The notes under the pieces are model-generated. The model worked only from the letters and a program-made list of their open reading frames with translations. It was not told the DNA's origin and ran no database searches. 38,444 bases of DNA from a virus: positions 1-38,444 of the IMG/VR virus record IMGVR_UViG_3300027759_000197. One strand, 5' to 3'. A program made the position numbers and the translations under genes. Each line of letters opens with the position of its first letter. Position 1 is the stretch's first letter. This document shows positions 2,785 through 36,790 of the stretch, piece by piece.

Positions 2785-3591
2785 TTATTTCCGTAAAGAT
2801 TTCATAAGTATTTCCCGTAGGTTTTCAGGAACTGGAACCGCCAGGGCTGCTTGTTCCTTAATCTCTTCCTGCCAGCGCAAAGTTTCCAACCTTTCTTTTT
2901 CTGACTTGGCCCTGGACTCAGCCAAATCCCTCTCGCGCCGTTCCTCGGGTGTTAAAACCCGAGGCGGCAATGGTGAGTCGTTCCAGCGATGGGCGTTAAG
3001 CCAGGTGGCTGCGTGCGCCGTGAAAGACGGATGCCGATTTGGATCATCCGCGTATCGGATCGCGCCAGCAATAATTACATCAGCCGTTTCAACCTTGATC
3101 GCTTTCACCCAGGCTTTCTGCGCGGCGGCTTTGCCCACCTTAATCGGGTAGGACTTCCAAAATAAATCAAACTCGGGTGTTTCATTGGATGGTTTATTAG
3201 GGTGGTTCATGGGGCGTGATTGTCGCCCCGTAGGTGTCGCCAAAGTCGCCCCGTTGTCGGCTTCAATGTCGCCCCGCTCCTCGCGGGTAGACTCTGTGTC
3301 GCCTCGTAATTTTTTAATATTAATCGTGTATCGGTGCGGTCTGCGATCCTCGCGGCAATTAACGCTGCCCCCAGCACCTTTCTCCATCCAAAGATAACCC
3401 GCCGCCACCAGGCTATTCACGGCCCTCTGAACGGTCCTTATCGAGATGCTTGCCTTGGCCGCGATCGTTGCCTGGGAAGGCCAGGCTTCGGTTCCGTCAT
3501 CCGAGGCGTGATCCGCTATTACCAGCAGCACCATCTTTTCTACGGTTGGCAAATCGGTCCGCCAACATTCCGACATTAATCGAATGCTCAT
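2785..3591 (-). CDS. Winged-helix replication-type protein
   Basis: Residues 15-75 form a winged helix-turn-helix (HTH_36-like): VLLVIADHASDDG, then WPSQATIAAKASISIRTVQR and AAGYLWMEKG. A polar linker follows, then a C-terminal module FDLFWKSYPIKVGKAAAQKAW with HPSFTAHAATWLNAHRWND, common in phage replication initiation proteins. By analogy it would bind the origin and recruit host replication proteins; no primase or polymerase is encoded here. The ATG at 3591 has GAGGGAG eight bases upstream, lying inside the end of the whiB-like gene, so the 95-base overlap appears genuine. Confidence 0.72.
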   Translation of the reverse strand: MSIRLMSECWRTDLPTVEKMVLLVIADHASDDGTEAWPSQATIAAKASISIRTVQRAVNSLVAAGYLWMEKGAGGSVNCREDRRPHRYTINIKKLRGDTESTREERGDIEADNGATLATPTGRQSRPMNHPNKPSNETPEFDLFWKSYPIKVGKAAAQKAWVKAIKVETADVIIAGAIRYADDPNRHPSFTAHAATWLNAHRWNDSPLPPRVLTPEERRERDLAESRAKSEKERLETLRWQEEIKEQAALAVPVPENLREILMKSLRK

Positions 3592-3913
3592 AAGTCTCCC
3601 TCACTTCTTTGTAACTAATGCCGAACAATTGCAGCGCCTTGAGCGCTCGGTTTAACTGGATCGGATACTTCTCGGGGTCGCCAACCGATCGCCGCTCGAG
3701 ACTGGTCAATCCTCCCCAAACCCCAAAGTCCTCGTTTCCAAATGCGTAGGCCAAACATTCTCGTTGGATCGGGCAACGACCGCAAATCGTGCGAACCGCG
3801 TTGATGTATTTGTAAGCGGCTTGGTTTCTCTCCTCCTCCACTCGATAGAACAACTCGGTATAAGACCCTCGGCATTCGGCTAAATCCCAATTTATCTCTG
3901 TGTACTTGGGCAT
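3497..3913 (-). CDS. whiB: WhiB-family Fe-S transcription regulator
   Basis: The start is the ATG at 3913 (MPKYTEINW), preceded by GAGAGGTGGG. The 138-residue product has the four WhiB cysteines: C14, then C44-x2-C47-x5-C53, which hold a 4Fe-4S cluster. These are followed by the family signature GVWGG at 64-68. WhiB proteins occur only in Actinobacteria and their phages, so this is the best host marker in the window. Phage copies often alter host transcription or superinfection. The C-terminal region (after residue 85) extends past the core and overlaps the next gene by 95 bases. Confidence 0.9.
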   Translation of the reverse strand: MPKYTEINWDLAECRGSYTELFYRVEEERNQAAYKYINAVRTICGRCPIQRECLAYAFGNEDFGVWGGLTSLERRSVGDPEKYPIQLNRALKALQLFGISYKEVRETYEHSINVGMLADRFANRRKDGAAGNSGSRLG

Positions 3914-4566
3914 CCCACCTCTCCAGTCAAATCGTAGTAATCGCAGTACGCGGCGCAAAAGTTCAAGCGCTCTGTTGGTTCGGGTGCTGGGCCGTTCAGA
4001 GCAACAAGCGCCCTGAGATCATTCAACCAGGCCAAGCCTTCTAAAGCCAGGGCTTCATCGTAGGCTTCAACATGGGCGCGGATTTCCGTCATGATGCCAT
4101 CGCGTGGGATCGCAACCAAAGCCACATTCTTTACTTCGTGTCCGTTTTGGGCCAAAAGATAACCGTAAACCTGGACCTGCATTCGTTGCTGCAACTTGGG
4201 GAAATAGCGCAGAGATGTTTTCTTTGTGGTTTTCCAATCAACAACCATGCCCAGGTCTTTGATGAATAAATCCACATGGCCCTTTAAGTTCCCAAAGGTA
4301 ACCTCTTGCTCAATGATGAAGTTATCGCCAAATGGGTCCTCGCGCTTGATCGCTTCCGCAATACCTGCATGAATAAAAGTTCCCAGGATTGATGCCAAAG
4401 ACTCTGTGTCAGAGTTGACCTTAGGACTTTGTTTCAGGATGTGATAAACCTGGCGGCGACAACCGCCGATGGCTGAAGGCCCAACTTCTACCTGTTGTGA
4501 TCGGTCACGCTGTGAGTCAAAAGCCTCCAGCGATTTAATAAGCATCCCTTGCAGATCAATTGTCAT
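3892..4566 (-). CDS. PD-(D/E)XK nuclease, Cas4/RecB-like, with Fe-S cysteines
   Basis: The 224-residue product has the RecB/Cas4 nuclease core: GHVDLF with D99, then VVDWKTTKK with D110 and K112, and the QxxxY-type helix VQVYGYLLA. Four cysteines (C36 in GGCRRQ, and C204, C208, C219) are placed like the 4Fe-4S ligands of Cas4/AddB nucleases. It probably resects DNA ends in a phage recombination pair with the annealing-type protein at 5637-6197. There is no CRISPR locus, so this is a recombination enzyme rather than an adaptation protein. Confidence 0.82.
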   Translation of the reverse strand: MTIDLQGMLIKSLEAFDSQRDRSQQVEVGPSAIGGCRRQVYHILKQSPKVNSDTESLASILGTFIHAGIAEAIKREDPFGDNFIIEQEVTFGNLKGHVDLFIKDLGMVVDWKTTKKTSLRYFPKLQQRMQVQVYGYLLAQNGHEVKNVALVAIPRDGIMTEIRAHVEAYDEALALEGLAWLNDLRALVALNGPAPEPTERLNFCAAYCDYYDLTGEVGCPSTQR

Positions 4567-5335: not shown

Positions 5336-5637
5336 AACATCATCCCTTCCTCGACTGATCGCCAAACGATACAGTCATTGTTGTGTTGGTTTTTACGAGT
5401 TGTTCCCGTGTCCAAGATGTAGCCGTCTTTAACCAGGCTGATCCGAGTCGGGCGCACCGTGTTGCCTTCGATGCTTAGAGTTTTCTCAATCTCCTGATCG
5501 GTTGCCCCGCGCAAGCCCTGGCCCAGGATGTATTCATACACCTTGCGGCGTAATGATCCAGTCCTGGGCAGGACCTTTTGCGCGGCTGCAATCGAGGTGC
5601 GTTGTGCGTTGCGTGCAATAACAACCTTGTTTTCCAT
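5332..5637 (-). CDS. Winged-helix DNA-binding protein (101 aa)
   Basis: The core reads LRRKVYEYILGQGLRGATDQE, then IEKTLSIEGNTVRPTRISLV and KDGYILDTG, the pattern of a winged helix: helix 1, a recognition helix with NTVRPTR, and a beta wing. Such proteins are common in phage recombination operons and may bind DNA as regulators or accessory factors. The start overlaps the previous stop; the end is coupled by ATGA to the next gene. Confidence 0.66.
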   Translation of the reverse strand: MENKVVIARNAQRTSIAAAQKVLPRTGSLRRKVYEYILGQGLRGATDQEIEKTLSIEGNTVRPTRISLVKDGYILDTGTTRKNQHNNDCIVWRSVEEGMML

Positions 5638-6197
5638 CAGGCACTTAACTCCGCAACTCGAGCATTGATTACATCCTTGAGCGTTGTTCCGTTGATCGGC
5701 GCGTCAATAATCTCAGCGCTTCCTGTCCACAACTCTCGCAACTTATCTTTGTCATTCATGGCTGCAACCGTCTGAATGGCTGCTTCCGCAAGTTTCAGTT
5801 GATCATCGGTCCATGAGAGTTTCTTTACTGCTGTTTTGCGTGGTTCGGCTTTATAGCGCTCAACCTTCTGCATCTCTTCTTGCGATGGGCGCTTGCCAAC
5901 TGGTGCGCCAAGGCAAAGGACCGAGTTACTTAAACAACGGCCAATGCTGGAAGTTTCGCAGTTCTCAAGGGCCGAGGTTTTATTTACAAAGCCCGCGCCC
6001 ACGATCTCTTCGGCAAAGCCTGTCGAGTGAGGGGTTGGGTCTTTTGGATCAAGATACAAGAATGACTTACAGATAAAGCGGCGTTCATCCTGGTAGACCA
6101 GGTCTGTAAGCAATCGTGCGGATGGGTATTTTTCGTATAGTCGGCGCAGACGCGACTCGACCGTTTCGTAATCCTCAAGGCTGTATTTCTCTGCCAT
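5637..6197 (-). CDS. Putative single-strand annealing (Erf-like) protein
   Basis: The 186-residue product has the central motif GAGFVNKTSALENCETSSIG followed by RCLSNSVLCLG, like the ENxETSxxGRAL motif of phage proteins placed near Erf/annealing proteins. The N-terminal half fits an alpha/beta core, and the C-terminal part is a basic linker plus a helical tail. Location directly upstream of a RecB-like nuclease supports a recombination pair. The ATG at 6197 follows AAGGAAGG and a conserved leader hairpin. The family link is from memory of the motif, so the exact function is only moderately sure. Confidence 0.5.
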   Translation of the reverse strand: MAEKYSLEDYETVESRLRRLYEKYPSARLLTDLVYQDERRFICKSFLYLDPKDPTPHSTGFAEEIVGAGFVNKTSALENCETSSIGRCLSNSVLCLGAPVGKRPSQEEMQKVERYKAEPRKTAVKKLSWTDDQLKLAEAAIQTVAAMNDKDKLRELWTGSAEIIDAPINGTTLKDVINARVAELSA

Positions 6198-6201
6198 GGG
6201 G

Positions 6202-6240
6202 CCTTCCTTTCAGTTTGGGGGCTTTCGCCCTGGTGAACAT
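6202..6240 (-). promoter_or_regulatory. Conserved 5' leader hairpin, copy 3
   Basis: Minus-strand CACCAGGGCGAAAGCCCCC with a GGGC-GAAA-GCCC hairpin (bases 6219-6230), then AAACTGAAAGGAAGG, the Shine-Dalgarno sequence of the gene at 6197. It matches copies 1 and 2, but the upstream tatttgtg block of those copies is absent here. Confidence 0.62.
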
Positions 6241-6341
6241 AGGTTGGCACAGCAGACCAGGAATTGGAAGGACCCCAGGTCGGGCGCGCCGCATTCATTA
6301 CAGGCGTAATTACAGGCATAATTTCAGCAAGGAGGTCTCCC
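6241..6341. promoter_or_regulatory. Divergent intergenic control region with tandem 12-bp repeat
   Basis: This is the only point where transcription diverges: minus-strand recombination operon to the left, plus-strand two-gene island to the right. It contains the tandem repeat attacaggcgta/attacaggcata (6297-6320), the palindrome ggcgcgcc (6283-6290) and, at 6329-6335, the strong ribosome-binding site AAGGAGG of the plus-strand gene. The tandem repeat is a candidate operator. Promoter hexamers are not clear. Confidence 0.45.
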
Positions 6342-6554
6342 ATGGCTTATTCACAAATCTCGATCCGACTAGGTGGCCTTGCCGTGGAATTGGGAACCGA
6401 TGCCCAATATCCCGACATGGTTTCCGATCTAACTAACCGTTGCCTTTCCACTTTTAAAGATGCGATGGATAAAGCAAAAGATAACGGTGTAGACATCGCC
6501 AACATGAGGTTGATCACCAGCGATTATGGTGACGACTATGAGGATGATGAATAA
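6342..6554 (+). CDS. Plus-strand small acidic protein (70 aa)
   Basis: ATG at 6342 has a near-perfect AAGGAGG six bases upstream. The frame could be opened to 6264, but that part is the control region. The product begins MAYSQISIRLGGLAVELG, continues as a helical segment and ends in a strongly acidic tail (DYGDDYEDDE). Its TAA overlaps the ATG of a second small gene. Together with that gene it is the only plus-strand coding sequence in the genome. Function is unknown; an acidic tail could mimic DNA or bind a basic partner. Confidence 0.72.
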   Translation: MAYSQISIRLGGLAVELGTDAQYPDMVSDLTNRCLSTFKDAMDKAKDNGVDIANMRLITSDYGDDYEDDE

Positions 6555-6637
6555 TGTGCAAAGAATGCGGACATTGTTCTAGAGAACATTCCTACTCTGT
6601 TGATGACGCTGTGGACACAACCGAAGCGTCAATCTAG
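6554..6637 (+). CDS. Plus-strand cysteine/histidine mini-protein (27 aa)
   Basis: ATG at 6554 overlaps the preceding TAA (TAATG). The frame starts MCKECGHCSREH and ends TTEASI before TAG at 6637. Cysteines at 2, 5 and 8 with histidines at 7 and 12 could bind a metal. The last 9 bases overlap the 3' end of the convergent phosphoesterase gene. Translational coupling is the main support; function is unknown. Confidence 0.5.
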   Translation: MCKECGHCSREHSYSVDDAVDTTEASI

Positions 6638-7663
6638 CCAAACCTTGTAAGCGGCTGTGACTCGACCCTTTACTGGATCAATAAAGTGAAGGCGTTGCGA
6701 TGGAGTTGCGCTTGCCGCAAGCATCACACCTGCATACCTATTGTCTGACTCCGTTGAGCCTGTTTGGTAAACCGCTCCGAGTCCGTTGGCCATAGACCAT
6801 TCTGCGTGCGTGTGATAATGGCCAATATAAACATCACGGAATTCCCAAGGATAAGAACCCGAACGCCATTTGTTTGCGTGTTGAACGATAGCGCCAGGGG
6901 AAGCAAAACCATTGCGGCCAACTTCATCTCCGTGGATCAAGAGCGCTCTGTAGTTTCCGATCTCGATGCGTTGAATGTCCTCGGGGCAATCTTGCCAAAC
7001 CAAGCGTTTCTCTCCTTGAAGCAACTGATGCGCCAACTCGTAGCACATGCGGTCAAAGTTATCCGATCGCGGAACATTGTCACGCTTTGATCCAATACGA
7101 CCGTGGTTTCCCCACTCAGGAACCACCGTGACCTTTTCATAATTAGCCAGGGCAAACCTGACCACATCAACACAAAGGCGTGAAACATTTACATATTGCT
7201 CAAACAAGGTGCTGTCGATCTCAAATGCTTGACTTGGAAAGTTGAATAAGCCTTCAACCATGTCACCGCCAAAAGCAATGGTGACTTCTTTTACTGGATG
7301 ATCTGCGCGTTGAATGTCGGTAATTCTGACGGCTTTTTCGGCAAATTCCATCACGCGTTTACGCATAACCTGAGAGTTATAACTTGCGGTGCGTTTTGCA
7401 CCTTGCCAATCCGTCATGTGCCACAGGGCAACTTCGCCCTTGGCTTTGCGCTTATCAATGGCAACTGTTGGAACTGGCGTTATCTTTCCAAAGGTAAGCA
7501 TCGCATCGTAGGCCGCTTGACGAGTAGCAAATACCAGGTCCTCGTTGCGTTCTTTAGATTGTTTCAGTTGTTTCTGCAAGCGAAGCATCGCCTGGCGTAA
7601 TTCTTTTACATCGTTGGACTCAACGCCCTCGGGCATCTCTTCAAATTGATCTTTAAGACTCAT
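6629..7663 (-). CDS. Calcineurin-like metallophosphoesterase
   Basis: The 344-residue product has the ordered metallophosphoesterase motifs: TDWQG (D85), GGDMVEG (132-138), GNHGR (185-189), LIHGDE (near 244) and GHYHTH (281-286). The first motif has D-W-Q where many members have D-x-H, a family variant. Residues 15-50 are a charged helical extension. Such phage enzymes may be DNA nucleases or phosphodiesterases like SbcD/Mre11, but the substrate cannot be read from sequence. The start overlaps the previous gene; the 3' end converges with the plus-strand island. Confidence 0.8.
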   Translation of the reverse strand: MSLKDQFEEMPEGVESNDVKELRQAMLRLQKQLKQSKERNEDLVFATRQAAYDAMLTFGKITPVPTVAIDKRKAKGEVALWHMTDWQGAKRTASYNSQVMRKRVMEFAEKAVRITDIQRADHPVKEVTIAFGGDMVEGLFNFPSQAFEIDSTLFEQYVNVSRLCVDVVRFALANYEKVTVVPEWGNHGRIGSKRDNVPRSDNFDRMCYELAHQLLQGEKRLVWQDCPEDIQRIEIGNYRALLIHGDEVGRNGFASPGAIVQHANKWRSGSYPWEFRDVYIGHYHTHAEWSMANGLGAVYQTGSTESDNRYAGVMLAASATPSQRLHFIDPVKGRVTAAYKVWLD

Positions 7664-36576: not shown

Positions 36577-36666
36577 GTGCGGTGCTTGCGCTTGCGCGGA
36601 GGTTGCTGCAACAAGTCCAACCGCTAAGGCGGCTGCTAAGAGGACTCGCTTTGGGGTCTTAAAGGC
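36577..36666 (-). other. Signal-peptide-coding stretch without a standard start codon
   Basis: In frame with the transglycosylase gene this reads AFKTPKRVLLAAALAVGLVA then ATSAQAQAPH: a basic n-region, hydrophobic core and AQA-type cleavage site. It begins directly after the TAA (36669-36667) of a mini-gene in the same frame. No ATG, GTG or TTG occurs in it. It could start at an unusual codon, contain an assembly error, or be a remnant. Confidence 0.6.
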
Positions 36667-36756
36667 TTACTCGATCCGCCCCTTACGACAGGCTTCGCAG
36701 AGTTGTTCTCCGTAGTGCCACGCACCATAAGCGCAGCGGTTAATCATTTGATCCAT
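36667..36756 (-). CDS. Cysteine mini-protein (29 aa)
   Basis: ATG at 36756 follows AGAGGAACTTAAA. Sequence MDQMINRCAYGAWHYGEQLC then EACRKGRIE and TAA. C8, C20 and C23 (a CxxC) plus H14 could bind zinc. The stop is followed in the same frame by the signal-peptide-coding stretch of the transglycosylase. Function unknown. Confidence 0.6.
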   Translation of the reverse strand: MDQMINRCAYGAWHYGEQLCEACRKGRIE

Positions 36757-36790
36757 TTTAAGTTCCTCTCGGTTCGGGAATGGAGCGGGT

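Follow-up and report, generated by a model that had tools for sequence, protein, structure and literature searches.

Genomic organization of the locus

The window analyzed here is the whole IMG/VR record IMGVR_UViG_3300027759_000197 (positions 1 to 38,444; 38,444 nt), which by its gene content is an actinophage genome, with a freshwater setting and an actinobacterial host. It encodes WhiB at 3497–3958 (PF02467, E 1.2e-14) in an otherwise leftward genome; whiB is used as an actinophage hallmark (PMC6802176, PMC10202952), and 125 whiB-encoding actinophages have been reported (PMC6802176). Two small rightward ORFs, gene1 and gene2, are present as originally predicted (Table 1). At a size of at least 40 aa, the claim that they stand alone as rightward genes is supported: under a codon model built from the leftward genes, the frame containing gene1 has the top score among the 157 listed plus-strand ORFs of that size. 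Gene1 itself reaches 0.31 bits per codon, where the leftward genes average 0.25.

The two genes overlap at TAATG, where the gene1 stop and the gene2 start share one base, and are thus probably carried on one message. At its 3′ end gene2 shares 9 nt with that of the convergent metallophosphoesterase (MPE) gene. On the other side, a 144-bp gap between 6197 and 6342 separates gene1 from a divergent leftward gene, whose product we take, by eye, to resemble an ERF-type annealing protein. Immediately 5′ of the Shine-Dalgarno site of this leftward gene lies a minus-strand hairpin, GGGC-GAAA-GCCC (6219–6230); other clades carry different stems and loops at the equivalent position (GGGCT-AGTT-AGCCC, GGGCC-AGTT-GGCCC), and such variants at one position suggest a retained RNA structure in the leftward leader. 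Elsewhere in the window, gaps of 426 nt (664–1089) and 214 nt (36577–36790) hold no well-supported gene, and a tRNA and Rfam search of the window gave no match.

Table 1. Features of the gene1–gene2 locus and its flanking genes in the window
Feature	Position	Strand	Remarks
Divergent neighbor, leftward gene	5637..6197	-	phrog_11717, E 9.8e-25
Tandem 12-bp repeat, ATTACAGGCRTA x2	6297..6320	+	within promoter spacer and -10
Putative -10 element CATAAT, rightward promoter	6317..6322	+	19 nt before ATG; position conserved
Shine-Dalgarno AAGGAGGT of gene1	6329..6336	+	duplex energy -13.0 kcal/mol
gene1, 70-aa acidic protein	6342..6554	+	ATG at 6342; relatives, codon score, dN/dS
gene2, 27-aa microprotein MCxxCGxCxxEH...DDAVD	6554..6637	+	motif, relatives, dN/dS
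Convergent neighbor, MPE/SbcD-like exonuclease	6629..7663	-	phrog_284, E 2.9e-39

Conservation and properties of the gene1 protein

Relatives of gene1 numbered at least 107 at the first scan of IMG/VR, and the final set comprised 132 distinct loci with 77 distinct readings. The original prediction was made dependent on conserved frames; both frames are conserved and selected (dN/dS about 0.06–0.15), with pairwise values of about 0.06–0.10 for gene1 and 0.09–0.15 for gene2, and by sequence comparison both genes are under purifying selection. For gene2, which shows no codon signal of its own (codon score -0.05), coding status rests on this comparative support.

The predicted acidic tail (DDYEDDE) was confirmed, and the gene1 protein as a whole has a pI of 4.05 and a net charge of -9.5. 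Across 60 sequences, 17 residues are invariant (Y3, R9, G11, G12, L13, V15, Y23, P24, D25, D29, R33, D51, M55, R56, L57, I58 and T59). AlphaFold2 was run with 22 and with 60 sequences and gave a weak model both times; the low-confidence structure (pLDDT 67.9, pTM 0.42) consists of a beta hairpin, a long helix and a disordered DDYEDDE tail. A Foldseek search of the PDB with this weak model returned no significant structural match; a phage dGTPase-inhibitor-like (gp1.2-like) protein appeared at rank 35 with a non-significant E of 2.7 (43 superposed columns, rmsd 1.4). The protein has no Pfam, NCBIfam or PADLOC match. PHROG 6233 was considered as its family and not accepted (best E 0.0009, among 12 of 60 members). 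Three gene1 variants gave no tblastn match in cultured phages, and the gene1 profile found none in 84,980 prokaryote genomes.

Promoter and ribosome-binding site of the cassette

Comparison of the sequences upstream of gene1 revealed two designs. Leaderless relatives carry TANNNT ending 6–7 nt before the ATG in 32 of 32 distinct upstream sequences (control offsets: 1.7%); TTG at a spacer of exactly 19 nt is also present in 30 of the 32. Leadered relatives, the window included, carry NATA[AC]T 17–24 nt before the ATG in 59 of 59 cases, together with a Shine-Dalgarno site; in the window's clade, no TTG stands at the -35 position as it does in the leaderless group. The complete promoter signature, scanned for in 21 leaderless loci, is present at gene1, and its frequency elsewhere does not exceed that in shuffles. 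A sigma-70 consensus scan found no promoter at gene1. A promoter belonging to the gene1 cassette itself is well supported by the comparative evidence, as is the predicted independent control of the unit, to which counter-orientation, a positionally conserved promoter and conserved frames all point. A terminator consensus scan of 5900–7000 found none, so that the rightward transcript could run antisense into the MPE gene. The ribosome-binding site of gene1, initially ranked as the strongest in the genome, is among the strongest but stands third of 63 starts by duplex energy.

In some leaderless relatives (loci L170, L171, L181, L194, L198 and others), an inverted repeat, GTAAC-N3-GTTAC or GTAA-N5-TTAC, overlaps the -10 element and is possibly an operator.

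A counter-oriented slot beside the MPE gene

In all 132 distinct loci gene1 is opposite in strand to the adjoining MPE gene, and all other window genes detected around it share the MPE strand. To avoid selection by gene1, a second sampling was started from MPE and yielded 80 loci, 77 of which could be classified; all 77 carry a counter-oriented gene in this slot. The remaining three are uninformative, since their downstream sequence extends for only 42, 544 and 691 nt and b-type genes (see below) lie up to about 960 nt from MPE. Counted as loci and not as independent lineages, the occupants are a-type, i.e., gene1 of the window type (36), b-type (27) and c-type (14). The b-type is a divergent gene1 homologue (GKIVISLHQLWVEVEHES.YPDQ...), and the c-type is a proteasome-like Ntn hydrolase unrelated to gene1 (loci L236, L239, L240, L242, L243, L248–L250, L277, L286, L287 and L290–L292). 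Two c-type proteins tested match phrog_1040 of the HslV family (E 6e-27 and 1.9e-22) as well as Pfam Proteasome, above the Pfam cut-off in one of the two. The gene1 profile matched 0 of 14 c-type records, and phrog_1040 matched none of 23 gene1-bearing records except for one marginal hit (E 0.002, 11.6 bits). The window genome itself lacks the proteasome homologue (PPH). DNA upstream of the slot is related among some genomes of the a-type (clade B), b-type and c-type, with local scores of 62.5, 18.5, 17.5 and 15.0 exceeding every shuffle (maxima 10.5–12), and the leftward neighbor upstream of gene1 varies between clades.

Such alternative occupants of one slot, preceded by related DNA, could represent anti-defense or host-takeover cargo, in which gene1 would inhibit a host defense or metabolic protein, gene2 would act as a second inhibitor, and the proteasome homologue would be an alternative. 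The genes are small, acidic and independently promoted, and the resemblance to the dGTPase-inhibitor-like protein, non-significant and single as it is, would fit. However, PADLOC and the other libraries gave no match, the structural resemblance ranks only 35th, and gene1-family proteins occupy 63 of the 77 classified loci, a distribution more like that of a core gene than of fast-changing cargo; we regard this explanation as rather unlikely.

A role of gene1 as a partner or modulator of MPE is less probable still. The constant association in 132 of 132 loci, a set sampled by gene1 alone, speaks for it, but the opposite strands and the separate promoter of gene1 imply that the two are not co-expressed, and the unrelated PPH shares the slot with MPE in 14 of 77 loci. 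Moreover, the synteny of gene1 and MPE may simply be inherited, as DUF6378, endolysin and holin show almost the same constancy.

The tandem repeat upstream of gene1

The tandem 12-bp repeat of the original prediction is real: ATTACAGGCGTA (6297–6308) and ATTACAGGCATA (6309–6320) match at 11 of 12 positions, and ATTACAGGC has no other exact pair in the window. When the 144-bp gap was dinucleotide-shuffled 5000 times, a tandem of this kind arose only 4 times, which places it above chance. Clade A, nearest to the window, has two ATTAC half-sites 12 bp apart in 19 of 19 distinct upstream sequences, with the repeat copies identical at 6–11 of 12 positions. The sister clade B lacks the repeat and is about 13 nt shorter there in the alignment, and other clades keep the same gene1 under other promoter sequences without the tandem repeat. 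These observations weaken its description as operator-like, as the repeat overlaps the promoter spacer and the -10 element, is confined to clade A and is not conserved with gene1; it may be a clade-specific operator or a simple spacer duplication. Near the left end of the window, at 150–173, lies another 12-bp tandem with at least 11 of 12 positions matching.

The divergent layout, the non-random repeat and the regular half-sites of clade A would also be expected if gene1 were a Cro-like or anti-repressor switch of the divergent region, with the repeat as its operator. This is a doubtful explanation: the protein is strongly acidic, no helix-turn-helix (HTH) was found in family searches or in the weak AlphaFold2 model, whole clades keep gene1 without the repeat, and the leftward gene that such a switch would face differs between clades.

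The gene2 microprotein family

The family motif of gene2 is MCxxCGxCxxEHxxxxDDxVD, and seven positions (M1, C2, C5, G6, C8, H12 and D21) are invariant in 24 chosen diverse sequences. The Cys/His knuckle proposed earlier is present as MCxxCGxCxxxH, but metal binding by it is a motif-based assignment; a ferredoxin profile scored E = 0.72 against gene2, which is not significant. Searched alone, the motif occurs in at least 119 viral stretches. Among the 80 matches listed, nearly all are products of 26–45 aa that share the DD.[VI]D tail, exactly or nearly, and gene1 lies upstream in only 18; two of the 80, an HNH-like protein (L332) and L365, look like chance matches. In other actinophages without gene1 (L293–L369), gene2 recurs between two other genes: it lies downstream of a gene of about 66–70 aa ending in HGIRRETS..PKPPKKTGRKKV and upstream of one for a large VAGRDITEGRATRAIAVDLG protein.

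Within the slot, gene2 is found downstream of 56 of 126 a-type genes and 14 of 27 b-type genes, but of none of the 14 c-type genes (Fisher p 0.0004, the counts being of related loci). The remaining 70 of 126 loci have gene1 without gene2; relocation was considered and not seen, as 18 of 18 gene1 records without an adjacent gene2 carry the motif nowhere else. The two genes thus form a pair in about half of the loci, as predicted, but gene2 occurs alone elsewhere. A toxin–antitoxin arrangement, in which acidic gene1 would neutralize gene2, is extremely improbable even though the genes are small and overlapping and the upstream one is acidic, because gene2 is acidic too (net charge -4.3) and the genes are not kept together, gene2 standing alone in 27 of 27 long records other than the window and gene1 alone in 70 of 126 loci.

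These long records (28 of 32–125 kb, window included) were chosen for carrying gene2; each has it exactly once, the reversed control pattern never occurs, and gene1 is absent from all 27 other than the window. All 28 also encode WhiB, which, because they were selected for gene2, reflects co-occurrence with an actinophage hallmark and not a functional link. A dependence of gene2 on WhiB was dropped, since four gene1+gene2 records (G026–G029) lack WhiB. NCBIfam and PADLOC gave no match for gene2, nor did short-query tblastn against cultured phages and plasmids, a search of limited sensitivity at 28 aa. In 84,980 prokaryote genomes gene2 had one match, contig RGDC01000007.1 (L407) of the Actinomycetota MAG WB6_1B_195; this contig, binned with the actinobacterial MAG, carries the syntenic phage block, including gene2 and a b-type gene1. 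Taken together, gene2 apparently belongs to a widespread and undescribed family of viral microproteins of about 28 residues.

A model of the cassette

We interpret gene1 and gene2 as an independently transcribed, counter-oriented accessory cassette, and assign this reading as a whole, including the roles proposed below, a probability of roughly 0.5 on the basis of sequence. In a family of freshwater actinophages, the cassette would lie where the MPE/lysis block meets the recombination/replication operon. A promoter directly before gene1 appears to be kept family-wide, with mRNAs that would be leaderless in some members and leadered in others, and the slot can hold a proteasome-homologue gene instead of gene1. 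Leaderless relatives have a promoter similar to those used by actinobacterial SigA, so the cassette could be transcribed by host polymerase as soon as infection begins, and we infer that its action is early and host-directed. The gene1 protein is strongly acidic, no DNA-binding fold is predicted for it, and it would bind a host or phage protein; given the weak AlphaFold2 model and a Foldseek search without significant match, this assignment derives mainly from charge. The gene2 product would bind metal, either Zn or an Fe-S center via its ferredoxin-like CxxCGxCxxxH, and would serve as a partner or effector in its own right. More specifically, gene2 might be a metal or Fe-S microprotein of many unrelated actinobacterial phages that hits an actinobacterium-specific target, e.g., the SigA–WhiB machinery, and that here rides with gene1 on an early leaderless cassette, though we give this extension a low probability.

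Viruses of abundant freshwater Actinobacteria repeatedly carry two protein families for which searches of curated libraries (Pfam, PHROGs and NCBIfam) gave no accepted match. Large small-gene catalogues exist (e.g., Fremin et al. 2022, as cited in PMC11323111), and either family may have been listed there without description. The conserved single-copy microprotein, with its invariant Cys/His motif, provides a testable lead to a host target, and the slot raises the question of what common ground a tiny acidic protein shares with a proteasome homologue.

Comparison with known phage systems

The kind of element described here, an autonomous accessory cassette of small phage proteins, is already known. 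Morons are autonomously promoted accessory genes of phage genomes, and the cassette resembles them in its own promoter (on comparative grounds), its counter-orientation, its accessory nature and its exchangeable occupant at a fixed site. Unlike morons, it is family-wide and not a sporadic insertion, no terminator was found, and no prophage context was seen. T7 Gp2 and gp1.2 are small phage proteins that redirect the host; the cassette proteins, as predicted, are likewise small, acidic or compact and independently expressed, but have no sequence relation to them, and the gp1.2-like structural resemblance is not significant.

The phage proteasome homologues PPH and AAH (Fuchs et al. 2021, PMC8665760) resemble the c-type proteins, which fill this counter-oriented slot in 14 of the 77 classified loci; they are not homologous to gene1, and the window genome lacks them. 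In the study by Fuchs et al. (2021, PMC8665760), no phage specific to Actinobacteria was reported to have the AAH subtype; the c-type proteasome/HslV-like hydrolases described here stand in actinophage relatives. Finally, gene2 shares CxxCGxC, in the same order and spacing and often followed by HP, with the ferredoxin [4Fe-4S] motif CxxCGxCxxxC(P), and differs from ferredoxin in having His as the fourth ligand and a single motif within 28 residues.
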